Assembly (NCBI GenBank): GCA_964019055.1
Contig: OZ025211.1
Coordinates: 3,518,835-3,582,834, forward strand
Direction of reading: 5' to 3'
Length of the DNA stretch: 64,000 bases
Source: Anthopleura xanthogrammica
Lineage: Eukaryota > Cnidaria > Anthozoa > Actiniaria > Actiniidae
The notes beneath the pieces were generated by a model. That model was not told the origin of the DNA. It was given only the letters and a program-made list of their open reading frames with translations, and searched no databases. Numbering within the stretch: the first letter of the stretch is position 1; every line of letters starts with the position of its first letter. The position numbers and the translations under genes are program-made. Below are positions 7,639 through 33,967 of the stretch, in pieces.

Positions 7639-8020
7639 AAGAAATATCTCTGGGTGCAGTCAGATTTTTTGCGTCACCCCACTAACAGTGTATATCGTTA
7701 CAGCAAATGGCTCGATTATGAAATTCCTTTCCAAACAAATAAAATTTCATGGGTTTTTACAGCTCTCAGTATACACCATTCGTAAGTGATATCCACGCTG
7801 CGCCCTCGGCATTGGTCTTGAATTTCAATGAAAGCCCCCGCCCTATAGTTTGATCCTTTATTTAGAATAACCGCGCCCCCTCACGAGGGCCTGCTACGCT
7901 GCGCTAATCCCAATACCCAGTAATCTAACCTGCGAGCAGAGGGTTCCGGTATATTGGCAAGGGCAAGAGAGCATAAATGTGCATCCGGAACGTTGGTTAG
8001 AGTTAAATAGGGGTGCACGC
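7639..8020 (+). repeat. AAATCTGAC repeat, truncated copy R2
   Basis: Same orientation as the 8728-10480 copy. Starts AAAGAAATATCTCTGGGTGC and runs to GGGGTGCACGC, where a 20-bp minisatellite takes over. It keeps the empty CTGCGAGC site (7930-7937). Confidence 0.75.
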
Positions 8021-8445
8021 AATAGTAATCGATGGTAGTCAATAGTAATCGATGATACTCAATAGTAATCGATGACAGTCAATAGTAATCGATGACAGTC
8101 AATAGTAATCAATGATAGTCAATAGTAATCGATGATAGTCAATAGTAATCGATGATAGTCAATAGTAATCGATGATAGTCAATAGTAATCGATGATAGTC
8201 AATAGTAATCGATGATACTCAATAGTAATCGATGACAGTCAATAGTAATCGATGACAGTCAATAGTAATCAATGATAGTCAATAGTAATCGATGATAGTC
8301 AATAGTAATCGATGATAGTCAATAGTAATCGATGACAGTCAATAGTAATCGATGACAGTCAATAGTAATCAATGATAGTCAATAGTAATCGATGATAGTC
8401 AATAGTAATCGATGATAGTCAATAGTAATCGATGATAGTCAATAG
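8021..8445. repeat. 20-bp minisatellite AATAGTAATCGATGATAGTC, about 21 units
   Basis: Units are exactly 20 bp with a few recurring variants (GATACTC, GACAGTC, AATCAATG). The order of variants repeats, which implies block duplications of several units. Units adjoin with no spacers, so this is not a CRISPR array. Confidence 0.92.
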
Positions 8446-8503
8446 TGTTGATATTATCTCTCACGAGTGAGCGCAGCGAACGAGTGAGAGATAATATCAG
8501 CAC
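8446..8503. repeat. Palindrome GTGTTGATATTATCTCTCAC
   Basis: 20-bp arms (8446-8465 and 8484-8503) with one mismatch around an 18-bp loop. Probably the end of another small element that extends to about 8727; the TTATATGAAAT motif near 8555 is repeated inverted near 8717. Confidence 0.7.
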
Positions 8504-9039: not shown

Positions 9040-9916
9040 GGGTACCTGGAAACCGCGTTACAAGTTACGAAGTTACGAAGTTACGAAGTTACGAAGTTAC
9101 GAAGTTACGAAGTTACGAAGTTACGAAGTTACGAAGTTACGAAGTTACGAAGTTACGAAGTTACGAAGTTACGAAGTTACGAAGTTACGAAGTTACGAAG
9201 TTACGAAGTTACGAAGTTACGAAGTTACGAAGTTACGAAGTTACGAAGTTACGAAGTTACGAAGTTACGAAGTTACGAAGTTACGAAGTTACGAAGTTAC
9301 GAAGTTACGAAGTTACAGAATTACAGACCAAATGTTTGTCTGTCAGACACCGGTTGACCCGCAATACCAGCAAAACTCCAAAACGAGTATCAGTTTTAAT
9401 GCTTCATAGAAAAGAACCAATATTGACATAAACTAAGCATTTACGTCCTTAAACGTATCCTTTTGGAACCATGGGCTTTAAAGAAATCAATTATAATTTA
9501 CACCTTTTCTTCTGTGAGAATGTACTTTTCTTCGTGTGTTATCACAAAAGAAAAATCATACTGACTACCCTCAAAACTATCATATTACAGAATTTTGAAG
9601 ATTTTACTCAATTTAAGCAATTACAAGCAGCCCGGTCTCAATAGTTGTTAGAGAGTTCGTGTGTGTGGTTTTATGCGAGTTTCTCCCTTCCACTACCAAA
9701 AAAAAAAAAGATCTACAAGGCCTGAGCAACTACCTTATCAATAACACAACGGCAAAAATCCTGTTTGTAACTAGCATGCGTGACATCAATATCACGACAT
9801 GTTGACAGAAATTTGACAGACATTTGTTCTGTAATTCTGTAACTTTGTAACTCTGGAACTCTGTAACTCTGTAACTTTGTAACTTGGTAACTTGTAACGC
9901 GATTTCCAAGTAGCCC
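9040..9916. mobile_element. Non-autonomous DNA transposon with 8-bp target duplication (hAT-like)
   Basis: Left end GGGTACCTGGAAACCGCG and right end (reverse complement) GGGCTACTTGGAAATCGCG, both continuing GTTACAAGTTAC. CTGCGAGC flanks it at 9032-9039 and 9917-9924 and is single in the sister repeats at 4234-4241 (reverse complement) and 7930-7937, so insertion after repeat duplication is clear. Eight base pairs is the hAT target size. No transposase is seen. Confidence 0.82.
9063..9316. repeat. 8-bp microsatellite AGTTACGA, about 31 units
   Basis: Perfect GTTACGAA-type units filling the left subterminal part of the 9040-9916 transposon. The right end carries a short decayed inverted version (GTAACTCTG/GTAACTTTG, 9835-9895), so the array is an expanded inverted-repeat arm. 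Confidence 0.93.
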
Positions 9917-11330: not shown

Positions 11331-11400
11331 TGGTCCAAGGCCTTATTGAGGATGTTATTCACAGCATTCTTTCTCTTTCTCTGTTCATGGACATTAACAG
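11331..11400 (+). CDS. Gene B exon 1: 5'UTR end and signal peptide
   Basis: Acceptor TTTTAACAG, ATG at 11352, donor GTAAGC after 11400. Encodes MLFTAFFLFLCSWTLT plus one base. This is the only ATG in a hydrophobic context, and genes A and C start at the same place. Confidence 0.83.
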
Positions 11401-14400
11401 GTAAGCAAAGCTTATTTAGACTTAAAGGGCCCTACAATTACAAAACCTTATCCCTCGCTCCAACACCAAGGGATATGGAGACATAGCGTTCTACGTTAGT
11501 GCACCAAAGCTGTGGAACGAACTTCCTCTTGATTTAAGAATGCAGAACAGTTTAGAACTTTTCAAGAAAAAACTTAAAACTTTTCTTTTTTTTTAATTTT
11601 CTGTAAACAGCGCCTTTGGGCTAAACGGAGTTACACGCTATACAAATTAGTTTATTAATATTATTATAAAACTATCATCCATGGTCTATATAGTTCTTTA
11701 CTTGTTTAACAGTATAGTTCAAAAAAAAACTTCTTAAAAAACAATTATTTAAAAAAAAGGTTGAAGACGCGAACGGCAAATGGCGATCGGTATTAAGATT
11801 GCACGACCAAAAAGAACTGTTTCGTAATCACAATTTCTTCATAGTCATGTGTTGTTTGACTTCTAAATTCAAATTAGATTTCAGTGGATGAATAGCTACT
11901 CTGTATAGAGATGCCACTGCTGAATCTCATTATTCACTAATTTTGAGTTATTGATCTTCTTTCAGCTGGTCTCACCCCACCTACTATCATTTTTCCACCC
12001 AACGACCTTGATGATCGAGACCAAGCAGTGGACAAGGAAAATGGGTTTACCCTTTCTTGCAAAGCAACTGGTTCATTGCCCTTGACCTTTAAGTGGAAAA
12101 AATCTGGTGAAGATTTAATACATATTCCCTATCACCAAACAATAACATCGTCAGGGCATTCTTCTAATTTGACTTTTAAAACACTCTCACCCCATAATGA
12201 TGGAAAGTATCAGTGTTTAGTCAGTAATTCTGCCGGTGGAACATTCTCAAGGAAGCTTCGCTTGAAAGTAACTGGTAAGATATTTTGAGTTTTGTTCTGT
12301 TGGTTCTGTTTAAAATTGTTTTCATTGCTATGAATTGACCAAGACAAAAAAGGTCACAACAGGTTAATGGGAAATAGACCATTTTCATACCATGGGAAGA
12401 CTGGGTACTGGAGGTATGGTATATCATTCACAGCAACAACTGCCATATTGAAAGTCCACAAAAGGAAATGTAGAGGTAGGCTAGAGAGTTGGAAATATCA
12501 AAATTATTGAGAATCATTGTGAAAGCTGCAGTCTACAACAAGATATATGTAATGGCCAAGGAATGGTGAGAATACCTCGAGTGCCCAGTCTCCCCAATGT
12601 ATAAAAAAGGTCTTTAGTTCACCATCAATCAAATAAATTGTTCTCGTACATGCTCATACGGTGATTGGTCAGGAGCCGTGGTAAATAAGAGGACATACTG
12701 ATAGAATGACGAATCCCTTGCACATGGAGCCAGCATGCGCTTGAAATAGTTTTCAACTTTTGACGTCATATCAAGAGGACATACCACGCTAAACCATCGG
12801 AAATTTGGCGAATAGATCTTAATTATGTACTTCACAGAGACAAATAATAGTTTTGGTATCATTACTCAGGTGATTATTCGAAAACATTGATTTATTTCTA
12901 AAATGTAGATAATTTTTGTATTTTGAAAAGAGGCCTGTATCAACAAACGAAACATGTGCAATCCAATATTCACCTGTAGCTGACTATAAAGAAATATTCT
13001 GAAGTTCTCGACCAATCAACACACTCAATTTTCTATAATCACATTGGAAATTATACAAAAATTAATTATTATTACTACATTTATTAGGTTATTACATGTA
13101 GGACTTTATGTCCTAGCAATTTGTGCTTTGCTTTACAAAGTAAATATACTGACTGTGTGCATCTTTTTATGCTTCAGCAACTTCAGATTTCATAATACCC
13201 AAGACCGTAGAAAAGACTGTGAATGTGACAGTCGGCCGTTCCTTGTATATTCCATGTCCACAGCAAAAAGCTGGTCCAGCTTTTAGTAACTTTGGAGCTT
13301 TATATTCTTGGGGAAGAAAGCGAGGGAAAGTCCAAATGACACTGCAAATGAAACAGAACATAGCTCAACTACCCAATAGTGGTTTATTCTTCACATACGT
13401 GGATAAGGAAGACATTAAAAAGCTAGAACAATATCCTTCCCTATTACAACTGCAATGCGTTGTGGAGTCTGGTTACTCAGTCTACCGTTCGCTTCTATAC
13501 AAACTTAATGTCATAGGAACTGGTATGTATTATTTAGGGAACCTTCTTTTTTATAACCATTTCCGCTACTTTGAAACAAATGCCTTGAGAGCCTGACAAC
13601 ACAGCCGGAAGCCTAATGCCATTAGAGAACAACTCTAGTAACTTTGCTGAGTTTACTACTGCTTTATAATCCTTGGAACTAGACCTTATTTGTCTTGGTG
13701 TACCATGTTAACCCTTTGTTTGAGTTGTATCCATATTCATGTGTCTTCAAATGCACAACCGTTAAACAAAGAAATGACACTCTTGGTAATGCCGGACACA
13801 GTGATGGTCTGAAATGAAAAAAAAGAATGAATGAAATGAGATTTAGCAGTGACATCTCTATTCATCTATTTCAACTTTGTGTAATGTTCTACTTGTTTTC
13901 CACTCGAGAAGCGCTCGCCTCTCGAGTATCACTCACCAATGCGATGCGGGTTCGAGTCCCGGCGCGATCGGTGCCCTGTGTAAGTAGAATTCCTATTGGA
14001 ATCTAAGTGAACGAATGTAGCTAGATACTCTGTAAACGTCCATAATCATATTATTTCTTTCCTTTTCCATTAGATAACTCAACCTTTGCTCCTAAATTTG
14101 CCCCTGGCGGAGAACCTAAGCAAATGGAAACAGCAGTCCAAGGAAAAGAGAAGTTCCTTTACTGCATTGCAAGTGGAAAGTGAGTCATCATCAGAAATTT
14201 TTTTTACATGTTAACCTTTCATTTCTTTAGTTCTGTAGTTTGTTTGAGAATGGTGATTGGGTTTGGTCCCCTACATACCATATTGACTCAATCAAGTGCC
14301 ACCCCAATTAAGTTCCGACTCTGATTAAGCGCAGCATAGAAGAGCAAAAATATTTAAGAGCGCCATTTTCTGATATATAGGTGTGATGATTTCAACCCTC

Positions 14401-17400
14401 TTACGTAATTTATGACCTCATTTTTATAGAAAATTAGAAAACAATTGTGCATTTTGTTGGTTTTACAAAAAGAAATAAGCGAAATCATAGCTGACATCAA
14501 TTGAAACAAAGTTAAGCATTATTTTTGAAAACGGTGAAAAGGCCAGCTTAACAACTCACGTTGTAAATTTAAAATCTAAATATTTTTCCACTCGCTTAAC
14601 TTGCGGTTAATATCGGTAGGTTAACGGTATGCAGTGGTTTTCAGGCAGATATCCCGTTAATAATAATTATTCTAAAATCATTTATTTTCAATAGCCCTGC
14701 TCCTCAAACTACATGGTATAGAGTACAGGATGGAAAAACCAAAGAAATTATTAATGGGAGAGATGGATTTCTTATCCCAACAGCCAATTATGGAAGGGTT
14801 CTGCATATCCCACAGGTCTCTAAGGAGCTGCATGAGCCTGGAAACTACAAATGTGAGGTTTCAAATGGTCAAGGAAAAACATTGGTTTCCAGACTTATCA
14901 AGATCACTGTTTATGGTAAGTCAACATTTATTTCATTACTGCAGATGAGATATTTAAGATATAATGTGGATAATTCTTGCCTGCTCACTTCAAAATCACC
15001 AAAAATAAAAGCTGATGTCTATACTCTACTAAAACTGTAATTACCGTAGACACTACCCTGGGGTTCCAGAGGGTTTTCTTCGCTGCTCTCTTGAGAAACG
15101 CAGAAAAAAACTCTGGAACCCAGGGTAAGTAGACAAATGTTAATCGACATTTGGCCAACTGTTTGCATGCTGATCTTTGCGGCTTGAAAGTTGCCGGATT
15201 GGTCCTCGGCTTGTTATAAGGTACAGTACATAAATATCCAATTCAATCATGTAAGCAATCTAGGAGTAAATGTAAAAAACATCAAAAAGGGAAAGAAATA
15301 TTTGGTTATTGGTTCCTATAATAAGCTTCCTTAGTGCTCTTCAGATCATTTGCATTGTTATCACACGATCAAACAGTTGCAATTGCTTCTTATCTGCTAG
15401 ATATATAACCTACTATGCATCAAACCATACACTCTGGACTGTTCTATAAATTTTGTTCTCAATTTTAATTGTCTTATTTGTTTTTCCTCAATAAGTTCCC
15501 CCTGTGTGGACTGTGAAACCTCCTCCAGTGAAAACAGTTGCTGTTCTTGGCGATGATGAGTTAGTCTGTGAAGCCTTAGGTACTCCTCCACCAAAGTACA
15601 AGTGGTATCACAATGGCATAGAATTCACATCCGACACAGAATTGTAAGTCGTAAAATAAAAACCTTGTACCAGCATTGTAATGTACTTGCCTCAGAATCA
15701 TGATTTGATAGGCGGAGTCGGCAAACTACCAAATGAAACATCCCCTTAATACATCTTTAATTTATTCCTTATCCCACCTAGGGCTCCAAACATCATAGTT
15801 GATGGGAATAAGCTGTTGATCAAGAAAATAGAGATGAAAAATGAAGGTGTATTCCAATGTGCTGTTGAAAACGACTTGGGTATGATTGTATCTTCAACTT
15901 GGCTCAAAGTGGAAGGTTAGTCTTGAAACTATTTCTTAAAATCTCGTTTATAGCTTCCATAACTGTGATATCAATAGTGTTTTTGATTTTAAAAGAATTT
16001 CGGTAATTCCTGTAAAAACTATGTGACTAATGAAAAAAACTTTATTATTATTATAATGTTTTACAAACATAACTGTAAACAGTAACAGTGGCGTAGCGAG
16101 GAGCCAGGATCTGGCGGGGGGGGGGGGGGGGGGAAGGGAGGGCACCGAGAATAAAAACCAATTATGGCAAAAATTTGGGGTGACCACGTGGCATTGACAG
16201 CATACATCAAAGAAAAAAAGGCTCGACCCGAACATTTTAGCCCCCCCCCCCCTCTTCATACACAACACAATAATAGTGAACTTGTGGTAAGGGAGAGAAT
16301 AACTCATCAAACCTGCAACCCCAGGCATGGAGTGGTTTAATTTTCAAGTTCATGTATTGAAGATTGACTGTACTCTGTATAGAGATGCCACTGCTGAATC
16401 TCATTATTCACTAATTTTGATTTATTTATCTTCTTTCAGCTGGTCTCACCCCACCTACTATCATTTTTCCACCCAACGACCTTGATGATCGAGACCAAGC
16501 AGTGGACAAGGAAAATGGGTTTACCCTTTCTTGCAAAGCAACTGGTTCATTGCCCTTGACCTTTAAGTGGAAAAAATCTGGTGAAGATGTTAAAAATGTT
16601 CCCCCTTACCAAACAATAACATCGTCAGGGCATTCTTCTAATTTGACTTTTAAAACACTCTCACCCCATAATGATGGAAAGTATCAGTGTTTAGTCAGTA
16701 ATTCTGCCGGTGGAACATTCTCAAGGAAGCTTCGCTTGAAAGTAACTGGTAAGATATTTTGAGTTTTGTTCTGTTGGTTCGGTTTACAATTGTTTTCATT
16801 GCTATGAGTTGACCAAGACAAAAAAGGTCACAACAGGTTAATGGGAAATAGACCATTTTCATACCATGGGAAGACTGGGTACTGGAGGTATGGTATATCA
16901 TTCACAGCAACAACTGCCATATTGAAAGTCCACAAAAGGAAATGTAGAGGTAGGCTAGAGAGTTGGAAATATCAAAATTATTGAGAATCATTGTGAAAGC
17001 TGCAGTCTACAACAAGATATATGTAATGGCCAAGGAATGGTGAGAATACCTCGAGTGCCCAGTCTCCCCAATGTATAAAAAAGGTCTTTAGTTCACCATC
17101 AATCAAATAAATTGTTCTCGTACATGCTCATACGGTGATTGGTCAGGAGCCGTGGTAAATAAGAGGACATACTGATAGAATGACGAATCCCTTGCACATG
17201 GAGCCAGCATGCGCTTGAAATAGTTTTCAACTTTTGACGTCATATCAAGAGGACATACCACGCTAAACCATCGGAAATTTGGTGAATAGATCTTAATTAT
17301 GTACTTCACAGAGACAAATAATAGTTTTGGTATCATTACTCAGGTGATTATTCGAAAACATTGATTTATTTCTAAAATGTAGATAATTTTTGTATTTTGA

Positions 17401-20400
17401 AAAGAGGCCTGTATCAACAAACGAAACATGTGCAATCCAATATTCACCTGTAGCTGACTATAAAGAAATATTCTGAAGTTCTCGACCAATCAACACACTC
17501 AATTTTCTATAATCACATTGGAAATTATACAAAAATTAATTATTATTACTACATTTATTAGGTTATTACATGTAGGACTTTATGTCCTAGCAATTTGTGC
17601 TTTGCTTTACAAAGTAAATATACTGACTGTGTGCATCTTTTTATGCTTCAGCAACTTCAGATTTCATAATACCCAAGACTGTAGAAAAGACTGTGAATGT
17701 GACAGTCGGCCGTTCCTTGTATATTCCATGTCCACAGCAAAAAGCTGGTCCAGCTTTTAGTAACTTTGGAGCTTTATATTCTTGGGGAAGAAAGCGAGGG
17801 AAAGTCCAAATGACACTGCAAATGAAACAGAACATAGCTCAACTACCCAATAGTGGTTTATTCTTCACATACGTGGATAAGGAAGACATTAAAAAGCTAG
17901 AACAATATCCTTCCCTATTACAACTGCAATGCGTTGTGGAGTCTGGTTACTCAGTCTACCGTTCGCTTCTATACAAACTTAATGTCATAGGAACTGGTAT
18001 GTATTATTTAGGGAACCTTCTTTTTTATAACCATTTCCGCTACTTTGAAACAAATGCCTTGAGAGCCTGACAACACAGCCGGAAGCCTAATGCCATTAGA
18101 GAACAACTCTAGTAACTTTGCTGAGTTTACTACTGCTTTATAATCCTTGGAACTAGACCTTATTTGTCTTGGTGTACCATGTTAACCCTTTGTTTGAGTT
18201 GTATCCATATTCATGTGTCTTCAAATGCACAACCGTTAAACAAAGAAATGACACTCTTGGTAATGCCGGACACAGTGATGGTCTGAAATGAAAAAAAAGA
18301 ATGAATGAAATGAGATTTAGCAGTGACATCTCTATTCATCTATTTCAACTTTGTGTAATGTTCTACTTGTTTTCCACTCGAGAAGCGCTCGCCTCTCGAG
18401 TATCACTCACCAATGCGATGCGGGTTCGAGTCCCGGCGCGATCGGTGCCCTGTGTAAGTAGAATTCCTATTGGAATCTAAGTGAACGAATGTAGCTAGAT
18501 ACTCTGTAAACGTCCATAATCATATTATTTCTTTCCTTTTCCATTAGATAACTCAACCTTTGCTCCTAAATTTGCCCCTGGCGGAGAACCTAAGCAAATG
18601 GAAACAGCAGTCCAAGGAAAAGAGAAGTTCCTTTACTGCATTGCAAGTGGAAAGTGAGTCATCATCAGAAATTTTTTTTACATGTTAACCTTTCATTTCT
18701 TTAGTTCTGTAGTTTGTTTGAGAATGGTGATTGGGTTTGGTCCCCTACATACCATATTGACTCAATCAAGTGCCACCCCAATTAAGTTCCGACTCTGATT
18801 AAGCGCAGCATAGAAGAGCAAAAATATTTAAGAGCGCCATTTTCTGATATATAGGTGTGATGATTTCAACCCTCTTACGTAATTTATGACCTCATTTTTA
18901 TAGAAAATTAGAAAACAATTGTGCATTTTGTTGGTTTTACAAAAAGAAATAAGCGAAATCATAGCTGACATCAATTGAAACAAAGTTAAGCATTATTTTT
19001 GAAAACGGTGAAAAGGCCAGCTTAACAACTCACGTTGTAAATTTAAAATCTAAATATTTTTCCACTCGCTTAACTTGCGGTTAATATCGGTAGGTTAACG
19101 GTATGCAGTGGTTTTCAGGCAGATATCCCGTTAATAATAATTATTCTAAAATCATTTATTTTCAATAGCCCTGCTCCTCAAACTACATGGTATAGAGTAC
19201 AGGATGGAAAAACCAAAGAAATTATTAATGGGAGAGATGGATTTCTTATCCCAACAGCCAATTATGGAAGGGTTCTGCATATCCCACAGGTCTCTAAGGA
19301 GCTGCATGAGCCTGGAAACTACAAATGTGAGGTTTCAAATGGTCAAGGAAAAACATTGGTTTCCAGACTTATCAAGATCACTGTTTATGGTAAGTCAACA
19401 TTTATTTCATTACTGCAGATGAGATATTTAAGATATAATGTGGATAATTCTTGCCTGCTCACTTCAAAATCACCAAAAATAAAAGCTGATGTCTATACTC
19501 TACTAAAACTGTAATTACCGTAGACACTACCCTGGGGTTCCAGAGGGTTTTCTTCGCTGCTCTCTTGAGAAACGCAGAAAAAAACTCTGGAACCCAGGGT
19601 AAGTAGACAAATGTTAATCGACATTTGGCCAACTGTTTGCATGCTGATCTTTGCGGCTTGAAAGTTGCCGGATTGGTCCTCGGCTTGTTATAAGGTACAG
19701 TACATAAATATCCAATTCAATCATGTAAGCAATCTAGGAGTAAATGTAAAAAACATCAAAAAGGGAAAGAAATATTTGGTTATTGGTTCCTATAATAAGC
19801 TTCCTTAGTGCTCTTCAGATCATTTGCATTGTTATCACACGATCAAACAGTTGCAATTGCTTCTTATCTGCTAGATATATAACCTACTATGCATCAAACC
19901 ATACACTCTGGACTGTTCTATAAATTTTGTTCTCAATTTTAATTGTCTTATTTGTTTTTCCTCAATAAGTTCCCCCTGTGTGGACTGTGAAACCTCCTCC
20001 AGTGAAAACAGTTGCTGTTCTTGGCGATGATGAGTTAGTCTGTGAAGCCTTAGGTACTCCTCCACCAAAGTACAAGTGGTATCACAATGGCATAGAATTC
20101 ACATCCGACACAGAATTGTAAGTCGTAAAATAAAAACCTTGTACCAGCATTGTAATGTACTTGCCTCAGAATCATGATTTGATAGGCGGAGTCGGCAAAC
20201 TACCAAATGAAACATCCCCTTAATACATCTTTGTTTTATTCCTTATCCCACCTAGGGCTCCAAACATCATAGTTGATGGGAATAAGCTGTTGATCAAGAA
20301 AATAGAGATGAAAAATGAAGGTGTATTCCAATGTGCTGTTGAAAACGACTTGGGTATGATTGTATCTTCAACTTGGCTCAAAGTGGAAGGTTAGTCTTGA

Positions 20401-23400
20401 AACTATTTCTTAAAATCTCGTTTATAGCTTCCATAACTGTGATATCAATAGTGTTTTTGATTTTAAAAGAATTTCGGTAATTCCTGTAAAAACTATGTAA
20501 CTAATGAAAAAAACTTTATTATTATTATAATGTTTTACAAACATAACTGTAAACAGTAACAGTGGCGTAGCGAGGAGCCAGGATCTGGCGGGGGGGGGGG
20601 GGGGGAAGGGAGGGCACCGAGAATAAAAACCAATTATGGCAAAAATTTGGGGTGACCACGTGGCATTGACAGCATACATCAAAGAAAAAAAGGCTCGACC
20701 CGAACATTTTAGCCCCCTCCCCCCCCCCCCCTGCTACGTCATTGAACAGTAAGGGGCTCTTCATACACAACACAATAATAGTGAACTTGTGGTAAGGGAG
20801 AGAACAACTCATCAAACCTGCAACCCCAGGCATGGAGTGGTTTAATTTTCAAGTTCATGTATTGAAGATTGACTGTACTCTGTATAGAGATGCCACTGCT
20901 GAATCTCATTATTCACTAATTTTGATTTATTTATCTTCTTTCAGCTGGTCTCACCCCACCTACTATCATTTTTCCACCCAACGACCTTGATGATCGAGAC
21001 CAAGCAGTGGACAAGGAAAATGGGTTTACCCTTTCTTGCAAAGCAACTGGTTCATTGCCCTTGACCTTTAAGTGGAAAAAATCTGGTGAAGATGTTAAAA
21101 ATGTTCCCCCTTACCAAACAATAACATCGTCAGGGCATTCTTCTAATTTGACTTTTAAAACACTCTCACCCCGTAATGATGGAAAGTATCAGTGTTTAGT
21201 CAGTAATTCTGCCGGTGGAACATTCTCAAGGAAGCTTCGCTTGAAAGTAACTGGTAAGATATTTTGAGTTTTGTTCTGTTGGTTCGGTTTACAATTGTTT
21301 TCATTGCTATGAGTTGACCAAGACAAAAAAGGTCACAACAGGTTAATGGGAAATAGACCATTTTCATACTATGGGAAGACTGGGTACTGGAGGTATGGTA
21401 TATCATTCACAGCAACAACTGCCATATTGAAAGTCCACAAAAGGAAATGTAGAGGTAGGCTAGAGAGTTGGAAATATCAAAATTATTGAGAATCATTGTG
21501 AAAGCTGCAGTCTACAACAAGATATATGTAATGGCCAAGGAATGGTGAGAATACCTCGAGTGCCCAGTCTCCCCAATGTATAAAAAAGGTCTTTAGTTCA
21601 CCATCAATCAAATAAATTGTTCTCGTACATGCTCATACGGTGATTGGTCAGGAGCCGTGGTAAATAAGAGGACATACTGATAGAATGACGAATCCCTTGC
21701 ACATGGAGCCAGCATGCGCTTGAAATAGTTTTCAACTTTTGACGTCATATCAAGAGGACATACCACGCTAAACCATCGGAAATTTGGTGAATAGATCTTA
21801 ATTATGTACTTCACAGAGACAAATAATAGTTTTGGTATCATTACTCAGGTGATTATTCGAAAACATTGATTTATTTCTAAAATGTAGATAATTTTTGTAT
21901 TTTGAAAAGAGGCCTGTATCAACAAACGAAACATGTGCAATCCAATATTCACCTGTAGCTGACTATAAAGAAATATTCTGAAGTTCTCGACCAATCAACA
22001 CACTCAATTTTCTATAATCACATTGGAAATTATACAAAAATTAATTATTATTACTACATTTATTAGGTTATTACATGTAGGACTTTATGTCCTAGCAATT
22101 TGTGCTTTGCTTTACAAAGTAAATATACTGACTGTGTGCATCTTTTTATGCTTCAGCAACTTCAGATTTCATAATACCCAAGACCGTAGAAAAGACTGTG
22201 AATGTGACAGTCGGCCGTTCCTTGTATATTCCATGTCCACAGCAAAAAGCTGGTCCAGCTTTTAGTAACTTTGGAGCTTTATATTCTTGGGGAAGAAAGC
22301 GAGGGAAAGTCCAAATGACACTGCAAATGAAACAGAACATAGCTCAACTACCCAATAGTGGTTTATTCTTCACATACGTGGATAAGGAAGACATTAAAAG
22401 GCTAGAACAATATCCTTCCCTATTACAACTGCAATGCGTTGTGGAGTCTGGTTACTCAGTCTACCGTTCGCTTCTATACAAACTTAATGTCATAGGAACT
22501 GGTATGTATTATTTAGGGAACCTTCTTTTTTATAACCATTTCCGCTACTTTGAAACAAATGCCTTGAGAGCCTGACAACACAGCCGGAAGCCTAATGCCA
22601 TTAGAGAACAACTCTAGTAACTTTGCTGAGTTTACTACTGCTTTATAATCCTTGGAACTAGACCTTATTTGTCTTGGTGTACCATGTTAACCCTTTGTTT
22701 GAGTTGTATCCATATTCATGTGTCTTCAAATGCACAACCGTTAAACAAAGAAATGACACTCTTGGTAATGCCGGACACAGTGATGGTCTTAAATGGAAAA
22801 AAAGAATGAATGAAATGAGATTTAGCAGTGACATCTCTATTCATCTATTTCAACTTTGTGTAATGTTCTACTTGTTTTCCACTCGAGAAGCGCTCGCCTC
22901 TCGAGTATCACTCACCAATGCGATGCGGGTTCGAGTCCCGGCGCGATCGGTGCCCTGTGTAAGTAGAATTCCTATTGGAATCTAAGTGAACGAATGTAGC
23001 TAGATACTCTGTAAACGTCCATAATCATATTATTTCTTTCCTTTTCCATTAGATAACTCAACCTTTGCTCCTAAATTTGCCCCTGGCGGAGAACCTAAGC
23101 AAATGGAAACAGCAGTCCAAGGAAAAGAGAAGTTCCTTTACTGCATTGCAAGTGGAAAGTGAGTCATCATCAGAAATTTTTTTTAAATGTTAATCTTTCA
23201 TTTCTTTAGTTCTGTAGTTTGTTTGAGAATGCTCATTGGGTTTGGTCCCCTGCATACCATATTGACTCAATCAAGTGCCACCCCGATTAAGTTCCGACTC
23301 TGATTAAGCGCAGCATAGAAGAGCAAAAATATTTAAGAGCGCCATTTTCTGATATATAGGTGTGATGATTTCGACCCTCTTACGTAATTTATGACCTCAT

Positions 23401-26400
23401 TTTTATAGAAAATTAGAAAACAATCCTGCATTCTGTTGGTTTTACAAAAAGAAATAAGCGAAATTCTAGCTGACATCAATTGAAACAAAGTTAAGCATTA
23501 TTTTTGAAAACGGTGAAAAGGCCAGCTTAACAACTCACGTTGAAAATTTAAAATCTAAATATTTTTCCACTCGCTTAACTTGCGGTTAATATCGGTAGGT
23601 TAACGGTATGCAGTGGTTTTCAGGCAGATATCCCGTTAATAATAATTATTCTAAAATCATTTATTTTCAATAGCCCTGCTCCTCAAACTACATGGTATAG
23701 AGTACAGGATGGAAAAACCAAAGAAATTATCAATGGGAGAGATGGATTTCTTATCCCAACAGCCAATTATGGAAGGGTTCTGCATATCCCACAGGTCTCT
23801 AAGGAGCTGCATGAGCCTGGAAACTACAAATGTGAGGTTTCAAATGGTCAAGGAAAATCATTGGTCTCAAAACTTATCAAGATCACTGTTTATGGTAAGT
23901 CAACATTTATTTCATTACTGCAGATGAGATATTTAAGTTATAATGTGGATAATTCTTGCCTGCTTACTTCAAAATCACCAAAAATAAAAGCTGATGTCTA
24001 TACTCTACTAAAACTGTAATTACCGTAGACACTACCCTGGGGTTCCAGAGGGTTTTCTTCGCTGCTCTCTTGAGAAACGCAGAAAAAAACTCTGGAACCC
24101 AGGGTAAGTAGACAAATGTTAATCGACATTTGGCCAACTGTTTGCATGCTGATCTTTGCGGCTTGAAAGTTGCCGGATTGGTCCTCGGCTTGTTATAAGG
24201 TACAGTACATAAATATCCAATTCAATCATGTAAGCAATCTAGGAGTAAATGTAAAAAACATCAAAAAGGGAAAGAAATATTTGGTTATTGGTTCCTATAA
24301 TAAGCTTCCTTAGTGCTCTTCAGATCATTTGCATTGTTATCACACGATCAAACAGTTGCAATTGCTTCTTATCTGCTAGATATATAACCTACTATGCATC
24401 AAACCATACACTCTGGACTGTTCTATAAATTTTGTTCTCAATTTTAATTGTCTTATTTGTTTTTCCTCTATAAGTTCCCCCTGTGTGGACTGTGAAACCT
24501 CTTCCAGTGAAAACAGTTGCTGTTCTTGGCGATGATGAGTTAGTCTGTGAAGCCTTAGGTACTCCTCCACCAAAGTACAAGTGGTATCACAATGGCATAG
24601 AATTCACATCCGACACAGAATTGTAAGTCGTAAAATAAAAACCTTGTACCAGCATTGTAATGTACTTGCCTCAGAATCATGATTTGATAGGCGGAGTCGG
24701 CAAACTACCAAATGAAACATCCCCTTAATACATCTTTGTTTTATTCCTTATCCCACCTAGGGCTCCAAACATCATAGTTGATGGGAATAAGCTGTTGATC
24801 AAGAAAATAGAGATGAAAAATGAAGGTGTATTCCAATGTGCTGTTGAAAACGACTGGGGAATGATTGTAACTTCAACTTGGCTCAGAGTGAAAGGTTAAT
24901 AGTCTTGAAATTATATTTCTTAAAATCTCGTTTATAGCTTCTATAACTGTGATATCAATAGTGTTTTTGATTTTAAAAGACCTTCAGTAATTCCTGTGAA
25001 AACTATGTAACTAATAAAAAACTTATTACAGTATTTAATAAACATAACTAATAAAAATAACTAAAACATAATATAAGGGCCAGATTCGAATAAAGACAAT
25101 GTTCTTTATCTGTTTAATAACCCTAATAAAGATTAATTGATTGATTGATTGAACTGTGAACAGTAATGAAAGGGGCTCTTCTGCAAGGTTTGCTCCACAC
25201 TCACTACCACACTACTCACTTAGGCTTTATATAATACACAAATACACAACACACTTACATACGAAGAGAGGAAGTAATAGTGAACTAACCCGGGGAAAAC
25301 CCTTGTTGCAAGGGAGAGAACAATTTAACTTATCAAACCTGCAACCCATGCAGGCATGAAGTGGTTAAATCTTCAAGTTGATGTATTACAAAGTAGTTAT
25401 CTTTTTTAAATATCTTTTTCCCTTCAGAAGATATTGTACTTTAAAAAATTGTGGCCTCAACACATGACTAGCATCAGATTACAAAAAGCTACTGTGTATC
25501 TCTGCCCAATTTCAATCAAAATTAACCAAATTAGCAGCATATATTACAGTATACTTTAGATCTGAAGCATGTTGAGGCCTGGGAAAGGCAACTTATATTA
25601 ATTATCAGCATAAAATGGTATTTTTAACATTTCAAGAGGTTATTCAAAATTTGGATCTTGTAACTTGGGGACATGTTAGACTTTAACAAGATTGCAAAAT
25701 TTTTGCTTTCAAAATGGCATACCCTTGGTCACGTGACCAACTATATGGTGCAGAAATTCTCGAACATTCAACACAAAATGGACCATATAGAGAAACTAGC
25801 CAGGGTGATAAAGAATATGTCATTAGATGACTTTTGTAAATGTGTTGCAAATCCTCATCAATTATTCAGGAGGTAATTAGCCAACCAACTGCCCCGATTT
25901 TTATCCCGTGACAATACTTGAAACCACGTAAAGTACTCCCAAACCAACTGGAAATCTGTTCTATTGTAATTCTAGACCAATTGCAACACTGTTCCAGTGT
26001 CCTTGGACTTGAACAAATTTCAAATCCAAGGACACTGGAACAGAGTTGCAATTGGTCTAGAAATACAATAGAACAGATTCCTCGTAAATAATTGATGAGG
26101 ATTTGAAGTCATCCGGCTACGCCTCGGACTGGAACTAATTGCGCGGACTTTGAAAACCCGTTAATTCCTCATTGTCGGACTTTAAACATTACTTCAAACT
26201 GGGTTTTGTATGGTTGGCCATCTTTGATTGTTAAGGAGATATTCAACAAAATAGGTCACTTGACCAAACCTGGTGTTTACAAATTTGCATATTTCTCCTC
26301 ACTGTTTATATAAGGTCATCCATACAAAGTCCAGGATTGTTTGCCTAGATGTCCTTAATAGCTTAACACCAAACAGAAACTTAAAATAATTCTCATCTGC

Positions 26401-28295
26401 CCATTTTTAAATTTCTGTTTTACAATATCCGACCATACACCTATAAAAATGTTAAGGAACCTAAATGCCACTATGAGTCCAAAATATACTTTTGTATTAT
26501 GAAATATTAGCAGAAATATTGCAATTAAAATTTTTTTTTTTGTTTTTTTTTTGGCAAAAGCCTAATGACCCAGGCCTTAATGCACTTGAGCTGTTCAGAA
26601 TTAACTATAGCAACAGCCTTAGTTCAGGGACCGCGGAGCACCCTAAAAGGTGGGAGGGCTATATAAGAGACTAGTGTGGGAAAAAGGGGGGGGGGCTGAG
26701 ATTGGAAAACGTAAGAGACTAGTATGGAAAAAGGAAAAAAGGTCACCCCTACCTAAAATTCTAGTTTTTGTCATTTCTACCTTTGAGAGAGGTTTGGTAA
26801 AAATAGATGTTATGGTCATACTGTAGGCAAAAATTTAATCAAATATTTTCTGCTGAAAAATAACAAAGCAATACTCCAGTTTCACATTCGGTGGAAACCG
26901 CTGTTTTTGAAGAACACAGACTCATTTGCACAGACTTAGCCTCGTTTATAAGTCATCTATTCAAATACACCATTAAACGTCCGTGGGATTGGTATTATTC
27001 GACTTGCACATTCTTTACCAGCGATTCACTCTGGCTCTTCGTTGACTAGGTCAACAACAGAGAAATAAACTGTACTGTACTGTACTGTACATTACAGTTG
27101 GCTGTTGCTAATGATTTGGAAAAGTCAACCGTAATGTAAAGAATGTGTAAGTTGAACAATACCAATGTTTTGAAATCCCACGGACTTTTAATGATGTATT
27201 TGAATAGATGACTTATAAACGAGGCTAAGCCTGTGCAAATGAGTGTCTTCTATAATCTTGATTTTTCTGATTTTTCTCGTGCAATATGATTGGTCTAGAA
27301 TTTTTTAATCAGTGCCATGACCATGCTATGCTTGTGCTGTTTTTGTTGTGACAGCATTCATACCATGAGCTTTTCACAGTCCTATGAGATCTGCTCTACC
27401 ATTCTTACTGTGCTTGTAATTCTTCAGTAGACTAAGAAAATGTACTACAATACTGTAAAACTTCTCAAAATACAGTATAAATAGGACCTTAATTTTCAAA
27501 ATCACGTATTGAAAATTCACTTTGCTCTTTTCTTTCAGCACGGCCTCCCAAAATCAAGAAATTTGGTCCTTTCTACATTTTCAGGGAAACAAAGGCAGTA
27601 TTGCAGTGTGATTCAAATGCGGCACCCGTTGCTACAAATCATTGGTACAAGAATGATCAACTCCTTACCATTGGTGGACGGTATTCTCTAGGTGCTAAAA
27701 ATTCACTCATAATCACTGATGTTGTCACTGCTGATGGAGGGAAATACACTTGTAAGGTAGCAAATGATCTTGGTATAAATGAGGCTTCCAATACTGCAAC
27801 CGTTTATGGTGAGTTTTGTACCTAGGATATTAGTAACATGCATTCCCTTCACATTTATTGTTGTTGTTTTTTTCTTTTCTATTTCCAAATAGATAAATAG
27901 CATTCTAATTAAATTTAAATGTAAAGTACCTGTCAGTGACTCACTGAGTTAAAAACAGGGTTCCCATGGTCAGGGGAAGTCAGTGAATTCTAAATCTTTT
28001 TCAAGGTCAGGGAATTTTGATTATGGTCAGTGAACTTTTGCAATTTAAACAAAAGTCAGTGAAAAGTCAGGGAATTTGTATCAAACTAAAAGCAAAATCT
28101 TTTTAAATTGGGAATTCTTAGTTGAGCTTCCCTTTTTTAACTACCATTTAGATATGATTTTTCTTAAAATAAGGGCACTTCGTAATCAATGAAAAATTTT
28201 TTTTGGTCAGGGAAAAGTCAGGGAATTTTATTTTTACCATGACTGTGAAATTTCTCGCGCGCTGATTGGTCGAGAGCCGTGGTAAATAAGAGAAC

Positions 28296-28329
<34 letters not shown>

Positions 28330-31300
28330 TAATATTAATAATAATAATGGTTTAATGGTTATTCCACTAGGTGGCTCTTACATGACCATAACTACTCTAA
28401 TAATCTGAACTGATTATAATACAAAAATATACATATATACATACTAAAAGACAAACTTATGAAAAAGCCAACCCCCCCCCCCCCCCCCCCCCCCACAAAG
28501 AAAAAATATATAATAATAATAGCTGAATAACTCTTAAATAGTTCTAGTAATAGCATACCCTCTCCCCTCCCTCCGAAATAATAATAATAATGAAGTCAAA
28601 TAAAAGAACACACCGATAGAATGGATGAATCGCTCGCGCACTGAGCCGGTGCACGCTCAAACGGTTTTTTTCTATTAAACTTTTTCTTCATTTTTGGATC
28701 TTTTATTTGACTTTGTTATGGTAAAAAAAACGGCTACGCCTCGTGAGTACATAACATTTTGATCAACTTTTGACGTCATATCGTGGTAAATAAGAGGACA
28801 TACCACGCTAAACCTTCAGAAATCTATTAATTTTCCAGATGAATGGGAACACTGAAAAACTAACATTGGCTCGAAGGAAAAAAAAAACAGTTAAAATATT
28901 CACAGTATTCTTAATGGGAAATTCAGAACATTTTCCCATGGTGGTAAAAAAAACATTTGGTAATGTAAAAGTGGAACTCTTACCATTAATTGTTTCTAGA
29001 TTGTTTCCATGATGGGAGATGTTAAAAGGAATATCCACTTTTGTTTTCCTGTGTATACTGTCAGTGTAATCTTTCCTAAAGATGTCATAGGAGATAAGCT
29101 ATGTCTTCAATTATAAATAATTCGTTTGAACTGTATTCTGTATTCCTAATACTAAATTCTAACATACTTGACTTTAAACAGACAGAACAGAGATTTTTAG
29201 ACCACCCAAGAAAAACTTGTTCATTGCACTCAAGAAAGCCTTGGATTTGCACTGTGAAGCAAGGACTGATCAAAGACTTGCGCAGTTCTTGACATACAAG
29301 TGGCTCAAAGATGGCAGGAAAATTGAATACGATTCTCGAGTACGCTGGATAGAAAACCAGAACATTCTGAAGATTGAAGATGCTAATGTTGATGATGGAG
29401 CCATGTACACTTGCATTGCATTCACCGATGCTCCCCAGAAATCCGAGGATAGAGCAACAGCCATTGCTGATGTAAAAGGTACTGACTAACATATTTAGGC
29501 CTTTTTAATGTTATTTTTAGACCTTGCTATCTTCTGGGTGTCTGTGTGTGTTTTGGCTTTGGTAAACAAAAAATCACAAAGGTGGTACAAAATCTCTAAC
29601 ATGTTTGGAAGTTTGATGGATCGAAACCACTCGTCTTTCAACAATGCGTCCCAGGTTTGAGTCTCACCAGACTTTGTGTAATGTGAGTAAAGTTTCTTGT
29701 TGGTTCTCTCCTGTGCTTTGAGGGTTTTTCTCTGGGTTCTCTGCCTTTCCTTTCTCCTCAAAAATCAAGTTCTGAATACCAGTTGAAATTTCAGTGGATG
29801 AAGAGCCACTCTGTGGAAATGCCACTGCTAAATCCTATTTATTTATTTATTTGTTTGTTTGTTTGTTTATCATGTCAATACATTCAATATTAAACCTTGT
29901 TTATTTCAGGTGTTCCATTCCCACCATCAGACCTCAAGATAACGGATTGTCGCAACCGAACTTCCACTATCACCTGGAAAAAGGGAAAAGAAAACGATGC
30001 GCCCATCACCCACTTTGTCGTTGAACAAGAATCCAGCTACTTTCCAGAGGAATGGCATATCATTGCAAATATCACTGACCCCACAAAAACATCTTATACT
30101 TTGCAACTGACAGCTTGGGCAAGCTTGACTTTTAGAATGCGAGCTATCAATAAGATTGGGCCCAGTCGAGCAAGCATGCCAACACCAAAAGGACAGTGCA
30201 TTACCAGCATGTACAGTAAGTTGGAATGATGTATTGTTGCTTATGGTGTTTTGTTGAAAATATATTCCATGCCAGTTGTTTAGAGTACTGTGAAAAGTTT
30301 ACTTAATAAATGGGTAAAAAACTGTGGATTCATTCCAACAGGACCAACTATGTATCCAGAAAATTTCAGAGGAGTGCCAGGAAAAGCTAACGAGCTTGAT
30401 ATTGCTTGGACGGTAAGAGTTTTTTTCTTAATTCAATAGTATTTTTGTATAACTGGATGCACATTTGTATTAAATACCATATCCACTATTCTTGGTTTAC
30501 TTTATTGCTGAGCTTTTTGCCATATGCCATCTTTTCGTATTTTATCCCTTCACAAATGTTTTGTGCTCCATTCTTGACCCTTCTTTCTGGGAAAATGGCA
30601 ACTTTTCACTTAAAATTGGGTAGCAATGAGCGGCCTCAACACACCACTATGGTTCCAAAAGTTCGGGTCACAGGTAACACCATATGTGAATGGAGTTTGT
30701 TTGATGTGTTGTTCTCTCCTATGCTACATTGGTTTTTTCCAGGTTCCTCAGTGTCCTCCCTCCGTAAAATTCAACATGTGAGTTGAGTGTTGTGTTCATA
30801 ACTATTATCAAATGTAGTGGTAGTGTGTGTGAGTGAAAAATATCTCCAACTAGTACAAAAGCACTAGAAGAACTAGATACTTGAATAAAGAGATGAGGTC
30901 ATCGTCATCATTGTCACCATCATCATCATCGTCGTCGTCATCATCGTCATCATTGTCATCGTCGTCATCATCATCATCGTCATCATTATTAATTCCTAAT
31001 ATGGATTACTGTTAAATCTCTATCTTATAGCCTATGACAAAGCTTCAAGCCAATGCCCCAGGATTAAATTACATCCTCAAGTACAATAAGATCCTAGATA
31101 ATGGCAGTAGAAAAAAATACAGAGTGCTAATCAGGAACCCAACTGATGCTAAATTCTCAATCCCAAATGCTGGTTACTACCAACTATGGGAGTTCCAGAT
31201 TACAGCAAAGAATAATGTTGGTGAAGGACCATCTAGCGATATTGTGAAATCATTCTCAGGTCAAGATGCACCAACATCCAAGCCAGAAAATGTGAAGATG

Positions 31301-33967
31301 GGCAAAATATCTGCTCGTTCTATTGAGTTTTTATGGCATCGTGTTTTGGTGGTAAGGGGAAGTGTCGATGGATACAATGTAAGTCATTTTTCAGTTTATA
31401 ATATTCAGGGTGCAATGGGGATCGAGGAGGGGGGGCGGTGGGACCCTCTGTCTGTTGTTGAATAAAAAATATTTTCCATACTTTTTATTGTGAAAGTGCT
31501 GTGCGCCTCGAATTTTTGTGTGCCCCCCCCCCCCCCCCCCCTCTTGAGCCTGATTTCTTTGCCCCTTTCCCCCCGTCAAATCCGATAATCTAGTCATCTG
31601 TAAATCACTTGTTTGTATTTGGTATAAGACCTGTCAAAACAGCAAAATTAACCTATCAGCGATAAGCTCGACTATGCATTCCAACCAGCCACGACTCCGC
31701 CCACGAAAGTAAAGGAAGGTGTTTATCAGTTCTTTTCTTTTTCTTTTTTCTCCATTTATTTTTTAGATCTATCATTGGGGTCAAAGCAAGCTAGTAAAAG
31801 ATCACCGTCGAAGAAGAGAGATCCCAGTAGGAGCTAAAGTCTTCAAGGCCATGTCAACCACTCAAGATGTTCAGAAACAAAAAGTCACTGGGCTTGAACC
31901 CTACACGAGCTACACCTTGGCAATTAAGGCCTTTAATAGTGGAGGAGAGGGACCACCGAGTGCTGAAGTCAAGTTTGATACTCTGCAAGATGGTGAGTAT
32001 ATAGGGCACTTTAGAAACGAGCAAGGGAATGGGGCGAGTTTTCAATTTTCAATCTAATTAGTAAAAAAGTCTGTAAGTCTGGCAAATTTGAACATGATTG
32101 AATGAAAAGTACCAGAATTATTGGCTTTCAAAAGTGCATGTCAAATGTTAGTGAAAATATCTAAATATTTTCTTTTTAAAGAAGTTTTGCTAAAATTTTG
32201 AGAACAGAATAAACGAATCAATTCTATAAATAAAACAAAAGTTAGTACGATCGTAAGGCAATTCAACAACGTCCGAACTTTTTGGTGACCGTAACACGAT
32301 TCACCACGTGAAAGCCTATCGTCGAAACGGTGGGTTGGCTGTTCATAAAATACACAATTTATGACAGTACAGCCATTTTATTCTTGCAGGTCTTTTCTCA
32401 GTGGCAAATCATTTTTATTTCATTGTTACATATACGTTGTACCATTGATAGATAACACTTTTGCAAAAATGGGGAGAACAAAGCTAATGAATGTTTATAT
32501 TTTGATATATCGTAGTACCTGGTCCAGTGTCTGACTTCAAGGCTCAAGCTTTCTCCAGCTACATCTTTGCAAACTGGAGTGAACCTGCCAAAAAGAATGG
32601 AATTCTTTTAGGATATTCCATTGGTGCAGTAAAACATGAAGATAAGGAGCCCATTAAACCTGTCAGCCAAGTGCAGTTTGTTGATGTGTCCATAGACAAA
32701 TTTGAACATCTTTTTAAAGATATGGAGCCTGAGACTCGCTTTGTTATATATCTCCAAGCCAAGACTGTTATTGGTCCTGGACCAGTGATGAAAGCCGATG
32801 TTAAGACTATTGCACCAGCTAGTAAGTATATTTTGATCTTGAAATTGGGGAAGATGGGTGTTGTGAACCAATGTGCTGCCTCTACAATACAATACAATAC
32901 AATACAATACAATACAATACAATACAATACAATACAATACAATACAATACAATACAATACAATACAATACAATACAATACAATACAATACAATACAATAC
33001 AATACAATACAATACAATACAATACAATACAATACAATACAATACAATACAATACAATACAATACAATACAATACAATACAATACAATACAATACAATAC
33101 AATACAATACAATACAATACAATACAATACAATACAATACAATACAATACAATACAATACAATACAATACAATACAATACAATACAATACAATACAATAC
33201 AATACAATACAATACAATACAATACAATACAATACAATACAATACAATACAATACAATACAATACAATACAATACAATACAATACAATACAATACAATAC
33301 AATACAATACAATACAATACAATACAATACAATACAATACAATACAATACAATACAATACAATACAATACAATACAATACAATACAATACAATACAATAC
33401 AATACAATACAATACAATACAATACAATACAATACAATACAATACAATACAATACAATACAATACAATACAATACAATACAATACAATACAATACAATAC
33501 AATACAATACAATACAATACAATACAATACAATACAATACAATACAATACAATACAATACAATACAATACAATACAATACAATACAATACAATACAATAC
33601 AATACAATACAATGCAATGCAATGCAATGCAATGCAATGCAATATTTATTTATACCAAAAAAGCTTTAAAAAAAATAGTAATAATTATATATCTATAATT
33701 ACAAAATTATGGTATTGGTTACCTAGAATAATTAATAAAGAGCTAATCTAGCTAGGTAACACGAATAAATGAAGTTACAAATTTTAGGGTGGAAAATGAC
33801 AATACTTGTGACCTAAAATAATAATAATAATAATAATAATTTTATTTCACAATAATAATGAAAATAGTAAAAAAGACACGAAAATATTAACAGTGATTTT
33901 GAAGAATAATAAAGATACTAATGATTTATAGAATCTAAAAAAAGAATTGATACTAAAAATAATAATA

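Follow-up and report, generated by a model that had tools for sequence, protein, structure and literature searches.

Three tandem copies of an Ig1-Ig4 module in a putative L1-type derivative of Anthopleura xanthogrammica

Gene B, the subject of this report, lies between two related genes, here called A and C, in a 64,000-nucleotide (nt) stretch of Anthopleura xanthogrammica DNA (the window), which was placed at positions 3518835-3582834 of contig C6 (16.35 Mb) in a genome assembly of 289.8 Mb in 125 contigs. Gene B contains three head-to-tail repeat units, with starts at 11897, 16371, and 20876 in a comparison of the window with itself, and each unit carries a block of exons for immunoglobulin (Ig) domains 1 to 4, a module known from L1-type cell adhesion molecules (CAMs). 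In a self-blastn of the window, 11897-20548 matched 16371-25049 with 98.7% identity and 11897-16074 matched 20876-25049 with 98.2% identity; this length and identity exclude a chance origin of the repeat. The features of gene B, including its fibronectin type III (FN) exons, are as follows.

11352-11400, + strand: exon 1, with the ATG and the signal peptide MLFTAFFLFLCSWTLT, ending in phase 1; genes A and C each have a homolog of this exon
11897-16370, + strand: repeat unit 1, including the junction segment 16075-16370
11966-12274, 13178-13522, 14074-14179, 14695-14915, 15496-15643, 15782-15915, + strand: block 1 exons
16371-20875, + strand: repeat unit 2, the recombinant copy, including the junction segment 20549-20875
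16440-16748, 17652-17996, 18548-18653, 19169-19389, 19970-20117, 20256-20389, + strand: block 2 exons
20876-25387, + strand: repeat unit 3, whose right flank, to ∼25387, is diverged
20945-21253, 22157-22501, 23053-23158, 23674-23894, 24475-24622, 24761-24894, + strand: block 3 exons
27539-27808, + strand: Ig5
29182-29478, + strand: Ig6
29910-30215, 30342-30412, 31031-31378, 31767-31992, 32516-32821, + strand: FN1-FN4 exons
34095-34210, + strand: last exon, with a hydrophobic C terminus ending in TAVTLLR and the stop codon

Each of the three blocks consists of six exons of 309, 345, 106, 221, 148, and 134 nt, which sum to 1263 nt, or 421 codons. The introns inside the blocks and those leaving them are all GT-AG, block entry and exit are both in phase 1, and the block borders read VE/AGLTPP between copies and VK/ARPPK into Ig5 (the slash marks the border). 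When exon 1, the three blocks, and the eight tail exons are joined in series, they form a reading frame of 5778 nt, or 1925 amino acids (aa), in which the sole stop codon is the terminal one; a splice form with any single block is equally open (3252 nt, 1083 aa). The original prediction, made from the sequence of the window, had claimed six exons of these lengths in triplicate with compatible phases, these border sequences, and a frame that holds if the three blocks are spliced in series, all of which proved exact, and its count of 14 Ig domains is correct by homology. The unit is longer than its exons, as its right part, to ∼25387, is detectable in the junction segments 16075-16370 and 20549-20875 (82.6% identity over 86 columns). 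The junction segments match the right flank at 25302-25387, which indicates that the first duplicated unit reached ∼25387 and agrees with the repeat end of 25390 that had been proposed.

The differences among the copies are arranged as a mosaic. In an alignment beginning at 11874, just left of the unit start, 97 of the 4212 columns differed among the copies, some of these lying in the left flank, and copies 1 and 3 diverge by ∼1.4%. Up to ∼12.8 kb, most differences set block 1 apart from blocks 2 and 3; from ∼13.8 kb, most set block 3 apart from blocks 1 and 2. Within 11897-13100, blocks 1 and 2 differ at 14/1204 positions, blocks 2 and 3 at 2/1204, and blocks 1 and 3 at 16/1204; within 13801-15915, the corresponding counts are 2/2115, 29/2115, and 31/2115. 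The exceptions are three block-3-only sites and one block-2-only site in the 5′ part and three block-1-only sites in the 3′ part. Block-1-only and block-3-only sites numbered 14 and 3, respectively, in the 5′ part but 3 and 40 in the 3′ part (Fisher p = 2e-8; p = 8e-5 if an eight-site cluster at 12115-12133 is treated as a single site), with the split point picked after viewing the data and with the block-2-only site and gapped columns omitted. Block 2 is thus a hybrid, with its 5′ part like copy 3 and its 3′ part like copy 1. Such a hybrid is predicted by unequal crossing-over between two tandem copies, and the pattern could also be mimicked by later gene conversion. The two junction segments differ from each other by two substitutions and two gaps. 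A divergence of 0.1 to 0.2% implies that the last copying step is very young; judged against typical animal diversity, the block number may still vary in the population, and with so little divergence in the newest copy, individuals probably differ in it.

The cluster at 12115-12133 comprises eight substitutions in 19 nt that separate block 1 from blocks 2 and 3 and replace EDLIHIPYHQ with EDVKNVPPYQ. In genes A and C, this patch exists in yet other versions. Gene conversion from either gene was considered as its source and rejected, as each gene shares only part of the patch with either version and no donor was found.

The identity of the module rests on several comparisons. Pfam recognizes three of the four Ig domains in each block, and Ig2 was assigned by alignment to contactin-2 and to a Nematostella protein (32% identity to the Nematostella Ig2). 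The one-block Ig1-Ig6 protein aligned best with contactin-2 and neurofascin chains (among the best 60 of 191 distinct PDB sequences at E ≤ 0.001). These alignments bear out the L1-type origin that had been proposed for the module, but the implication that gene B is still a complete L1-type gene falls away. In L1-type proteins, Ig1 to Ig4 fold into a horseshoe that mediates homophilic binding. By homology, the gene B modules would adopt the same shape. The Ig1 exon folded alone, from the translation of the unspliced window, gave five near-identical rows with a mean predicted local distance difference test score (pLDDT) of 71, and its best PDB matches were generic Ig domains, the Ig1 of sDscam first, which has no bearing on the horseshoe. 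A horseshoe shape has been reported for hemolin, axonin-1, and L1 (cited in PMC3400552).

Inclusion of all blocks in series is the likely default, since the splice sites of the blocks are nearly alike and gene B has a single signal exon. A scan of the junction introns for signal-peptide exons found none at the thresholds used, at which the known exons of genes B and C were recovered, and promoter choice of the kind found in sDscam genes is therefore disfavored. Of the original prediction's suggestion of a choice among three blocks, the version based on alternative promoters is weakened for this reason, whereas block skipping has room, given a weak donor and a pair of intronic stems with the following positions.

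16086-16252, + strand: stem in junction intron 1, with a G-run at 16116-16133 and a C-run at 16241-16252; beside it, at 16086, is CAGTGGCGTAGC, which we take to be a transposable element-like end
20560-20731, + strand: copy of the stem in junction intron 2, with a G-run at 20590-20605 and a C-run at 20719-20731; just after it, junction 2 has 33 nt that junction 1 lacks

The homopolymer lengths in these stems may be unreliable.

Downstream of the blocks, the tail exons of gene B match a Nematostella L1-type protein at 45 to 60%. In its one-block Ig1-Ig6 form, gene B has the six N-terminal Ig positions, with horseshoe homology in Ig1-4, the part present three times, and FN1-4 follow in L1 order. 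L1-type CAMs usually have five FN domains and a cytoplasmic tail with a FIGQY-like ankyrin-binding motif (Bravo_FIGEY). In gene B, a tblastn search with the Nematostella protein gave no match for FN5, although FN5 of gene C was matched, and no Bravo_FIGEY or FIGQY-like motif was matched, the stop codon standing directly after the hydrophobic segment. The intron in which FN5 would be expected contains a TACAA pentanucleotide array at 32883-33644 (762 nt, 152 copies, 99% matches). The last exon resembles the membrane exon of gene C over 34099-34161 only, and 34186-34271 matches an SHQ1 exon region at window positions −7285 to −7200 (Pfam score of the SHQ1 exon, 26.8 bits; cutoff, 22). This SHQ1 exon lies left of gene A (2717-2911 of the stretch L006), and the fragment at the 3′ end of gene B is 87% identical to it, apparently a trace of the rearrangement that made the gene B C terminus.

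The predicted protein has one residue after a moderately hydrophobic stretch and then ends; the C terminus could be a glycosylphosphatidylinositol (GPI) signal or a short anchor. Contactins are GPI-anchored and have six Ig and four FN domains. The best protein matches of gene B are nevertheless L1-type, though the best solved structures are those of contactin-2. Gene B is probably a derivative of an L1-type gene but itself lacks the complete L1-type architecture. The earlier phrase “for this family,” as applied to gene B, fits its ancestor and gene C instead.

The neighboring genes carry one block each.

572-2676, − strand: gene A, with its signal exon at 2628-2676 and Ig1-Ig3a; its single block continues at ∼8000-9999 of L006
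43126-63872, + strand: gene C, with one block, Ig5-6, FN1-5, and the membrane exon
∼690-765 and 1101-1299 of the stretch L010, + strand: cytoplasmic exons of gene C, tail with FKEDGSFIEEYG

Gene A stands head to head with gene B and encodes a signal peptide and one block. In its sixth (Ig4) exon, the usual donor is altered (GT remains), and the frame reads through to a stop at 448 aa, after Ig4; a search of the 40 kb to the left found no exon for Ig5 or later domains, and the product is probably secreted and made of four Ig domains. Gene C lies 9 kb downstream of gene B and encodes six Ig domains, five FN domains, a membrane segment, and a tail that scores 66.7 bits with Bravo_FIGEY (cutoff, 23.8), the predicted composition of a complete L1-type CAM with one block. 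Its best protein match, the first of 10 from 7999 scored candidates, is a 1295-aa protein from Nematostella vectensis (51% identity, whole query covered). A DNA search with the Ig2 exon across the whole assembly located at least five places, namely, the three gene B blocks, gene C, and gene A, a count that is a lower bound because it covers the best-scoring candidates only; L1-type genes of more diverged sequence may lie elsewhere in the genome.

Several repeats and other sequences lie in and around the three genes. A satellite with a period of ∼108 nt (36655-37859, 11 copies) lies between genes B and C. Arrays are present at 8020-8446 (20-nt unit, 21 copies) and 9057-9316 (8-nt unit, 33 copies), and a perfect ATGA array is present at 63452-63693 (60 copies). 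Minisatellites at 60030-60512 (22 nt) and 61209-61552 (41 nt) recur inside the intron that splits gene C FN5. An open stretch in gene B intron 1 (11426-11593) resembles the C-terminal end of a LINE reverse transcriptase, and exons in the stretch L011 downstream of gene C (82353-84000 in window numbering) resemble what we take to be endoplasmin/HSP90B1.

Comparisons among the genes bear on whether their frames have been kept. Exon lengths did not differ in any of four comparisons (block 1 with gene A, block 1 with gene C, the tails of B and C, and block 1 with block 3), for which the gaps expected at the intron rate were 15.2, 14.1, 21.8, and 0.0, respectively. The conservation of length despite this expectation indicates that the frames were kept in genes A, B, and C, although the expected gaps are shared between two branches and only part of them falls on the gene B branch. 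All five blocks (three in B and one each in A and C) share the same exon lengths, and their splice dinucleotides are intact, bar the altered last donor of gene A. Random changes would be nonsense in ∼4.2% of cases, and none is found among the 64 differences between the B and C tails or the 21 between blocks 1 and 3. The synonymous and nonsynonymous divergences (dS/dN) were 0.073/0.076 for block 1 and gene C, 0.048/0.045 for block 1 and gene A, 0.016/0.017 for blocks 1 and 3, and 0.039/0.035 for the B and C tails.

The block exons of block 1 and gene C differ at 90/1263 positions, more than the aligned introns do (63/1526, p = 6e-4, unalignable intron parts being excluded) and more than the tail exons of B and C (64/1824, p = 7e-6). 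Counting against positive selection alone, the block dS of this pair is raised too (0.073 versus 0.041 in introns). Between block 1 and gene A, the exon differences (56/1263) do not exceed those of the introns (90/1657). Of the 421 residues, 84 differ among the five blocks, and 17 codons show silent variation only. The variable residues are clustered (dispersion P = 0.0013, neighbor count P = 0.019); for the silent codons, the corresponding values are 0.22 and 0.28. One cluster in Ig1 comprises residues 48-56 of the exon that was folded; most of it falls between the predicted strands 39-45 and 57-62.

We propose, with a probability of about 0.6, that gene B is a real, recently reshaped L1-type derivative whose default transcript contains the three blocks in series and encodes a multivalent ectodomain. 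The sequence anatomy shows a tandem duplication that began ∼70 nt ahead of the Ig1 exon and ended ∼500 nt past the Ig4 exon; it produced two blocks, which then diverged by ∼1.4%. As read from the mosaic, unequal homologous crossing-over at ∼12.8 to 13.8 kb, inside block 1, next generated the middle hybrid and thereby three copies. All 18 module exons would be spliced in series, as the phase 1-1 unit, the kept splice sites, and the lack of a demonstrated first exon for each block would lead one to expect, and the product would be a secretory-pathway protein with three Ig1-4 modules, Ig5-6, FN1-4, a short hydrophobic C terminus, and no ankyrin-binding tail. The ectodomain would be long, adhesive, and multivalent, would have no link to the cytoskeleton, and might bind or mask the gene C product and its own kind.

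Several observations weigh against this proposal, some of them in favor of regulated block choice, in which intronic stems compete, a whole block is looped out, and each mRNA retains one or two blocks. The exit donor of block 3 (AAG/gttaat) is weaker by eye than that of blocks 1 and 2 (AAG/gttagt), and pairing across the duplicated G/C stems could leave block 2 in a loop and so skip it: the duplex of the junction 1 G-arm with the junction 2 C-arm has a predicted energy of −61.0 kcal/mol, as good as the local pairs (−43.5 and −58.0 kcal/mol). Every one-block splice would be in frame, and duplicated stem-loop arms have been proposed to create pairing competition automatically (PMC9013439). Block choice would, however, yield little protein diversity, as few residues differ between the blocks, and no signal exon was found for each block, unlike in chelicerate sDscam (PMC4835542). 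A comparison of whole-intron duplexes between unique and repeated introns, a blunt test, showed no clear excess; the duplex between I1 and J1 was weaker than shuffles, and those of the last intron with J1 and J2 were slightly above the best of 20 shuffles. For a mutually exclusive exon cluster, in which each mRNA would carry one copy, the structural evidence is mixed. We consider regulated choice unlikely.

Other unfavorable points concern constraint and the C terminus, and they would suit a decaying duplicate in which the tripling was neutral, the tail was lost, and nothing useful is made. The dN/dS ratio is mostly near 1 (0.53 for blocks 2 and 3 to 1.47 for blocks 1 and 2 over the ten block pairs, and 0.9 for the tail), which would also fit relaxed constraint. 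Blocks 1 and 3 have no intron gaps, so that this pair is uninformative on the frame, and the frame test compares lengths, not gaps; blastn placed compensating 2-nt gaps in the Ig2 exon of gene A, where a global alignment needs none. The hydrophobic stretch of gene B is weaker than that of gene C (mean, 2.29 versus 4.13), and the C terminus arose by fortuitous fusion to DNA next to an SHQ1 exon. The failure to find FN5, the lost cytoplasmic tail, and the 762-nt TACAA array, with other repeats inside the gene, also suit decay. Against it stand the 1925 open codons, the equal exon lengths in all four comparisons, and the absence of nonsense changes among 64 tail and 21 block differences, only part of which arose on the gene B branch. 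Decay seems to us slightly less probable still than block choice. Far less credible than either is an assembly artefact, in which one or two true copies, or two haplotypes, were wrongly assembled as a tandem, even though long stretches of copies 1 and 2, and of copies 2 and 3, are nearly identical. Tens of distinct substitutions separate copies 1 and 3, the mosaic is ordered, and the junctions differ from both outer flanks and, by the 33-nt insert, from each other. The left flank of block 1 is absent from the junctions and, within the searched stretch, has a single long match, in gene A; the assembly, in 125 contigs with a host contig of 16.4 Mb, is probably based on long reads.

Gene B is a real and recent architectural variant of a known adhesion family, its recombination history is clear, and a protein with three binding heads could be made from it. 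A natural three-module protein would allow adhesion strength or spacing to be related to module number, it could be asked of gene B what an L1-type ectodomain does without ankyrin, and the locus shows, at a very early stage, how unequal crossing-over changes the number of modules. A more speculative idea, to which we give little credence, is that genes A, B, and C form a fast-evolving recognition locus derived from one Ig1-4 cassette, with A as a soluble single module, B with a variable count, and C as a signaling receptor. Module sequence and module count would then serve to distinguish individuals or cells. At allorecognition loci, allelic polymorphism decides between fusion and rejection, and the fast amino acid divergence among the copies is compatible with such a locus but not specific to it.

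A protein search for L1-type homologs gave at least 120 matches among 7998 scored candidates. No repeated Ig1-4 block was present in five cnidarian-type proteins (P0001, P0011, P0012, P0013, and P0015), the other 115 being judged by name only, and each of the three ordinary-length cnidarian-type L1 proteins examined has one Ig1-4 module. The named anthozoans among the matches listed are Nematostella, Orbicella, Pocillopora, and Dendronephthya, in addition to P0012 from a close relative, so the lack of three-block proteins in other anthozoans is weak evidence. Equally weak is the finding that, in open-license literature, the titles and abstract openings among the matches listed name no cnidarian L1 gene with repeated Ig1-4; the L1CAM passages of PMC6374515 and PMC9729800 contain no cnidarian L1 genes, PMC5135030 has none of five L1 terms, and a passage of PMC2597720 describes FIGQY in fly, worm, and vertebrates.

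Tandem multiexon cassettes for the N-terminal Ig domains of an adhesion molecule are known from chelicerate sDscam, where, according to PMC4835542, each cassette has its own promoter and leader and generally only one is used; the gene B blocks, in contrast, follow one shared signal exon, and no block leader was found. In the L1-type SAX-7 of Caenorhabditis elegans, according to PMC3400552, loss of Ig1-2 or of the horseshoe hinge alters adhesiveness, and SAX-7L, which is likely horseshoe-shaped, shows weaker adhesion than the short SAX-7S, so that more horseshoes need not give more adhesion. SAX-7 varies by the removal of Ig1-2 and not by the addition of Ig1-4 modules.

The closest counterparts are cnidarian. 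The Nematostella vectensis L1-type CAM (P0001, 1295 aa) has Ig1-6 and FN domains in the same order as gene B but a single Ig1-4 block and a Bravo_FIGEY tail, in contrast to three blocks, no FN5 found, and no cytoplasmic tail. In Orbicella faveolata P0011 (2837 aa), Ig1-4 and Ig5 precede a long single-Ig array, a second Ig5-Ig6, FN domains, and Bravo_FIGEY, with 22 to 24 Ig stretches by the three main models, and Pocillopora damicornis P0013 (1982 aa, “hypothetical”) starts inside the single-Ig array and has 15 to 16 stretches. Both proteins, filed as “hemicentin-1-like” or uncharacterized, are L1-type, with Bravo_FIGEY tails and long Ig arrays. These database gene models, compared at the protein level, share with gene B a lengthened Ig ectodomain ahead of L1-like Ig5-6 and FN1-4 but differ in that the array consists of similar single Ig domains rather than a four-Ig module and in that the tail is kept. 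The architecture of gene B is therefore unusual, as had been proposed, but has a parallel in two corals lengthened by single-Ig arrays, and the comparison suggests that hexacoral L1-type ectodomains have been lengthened in at least two different ways.

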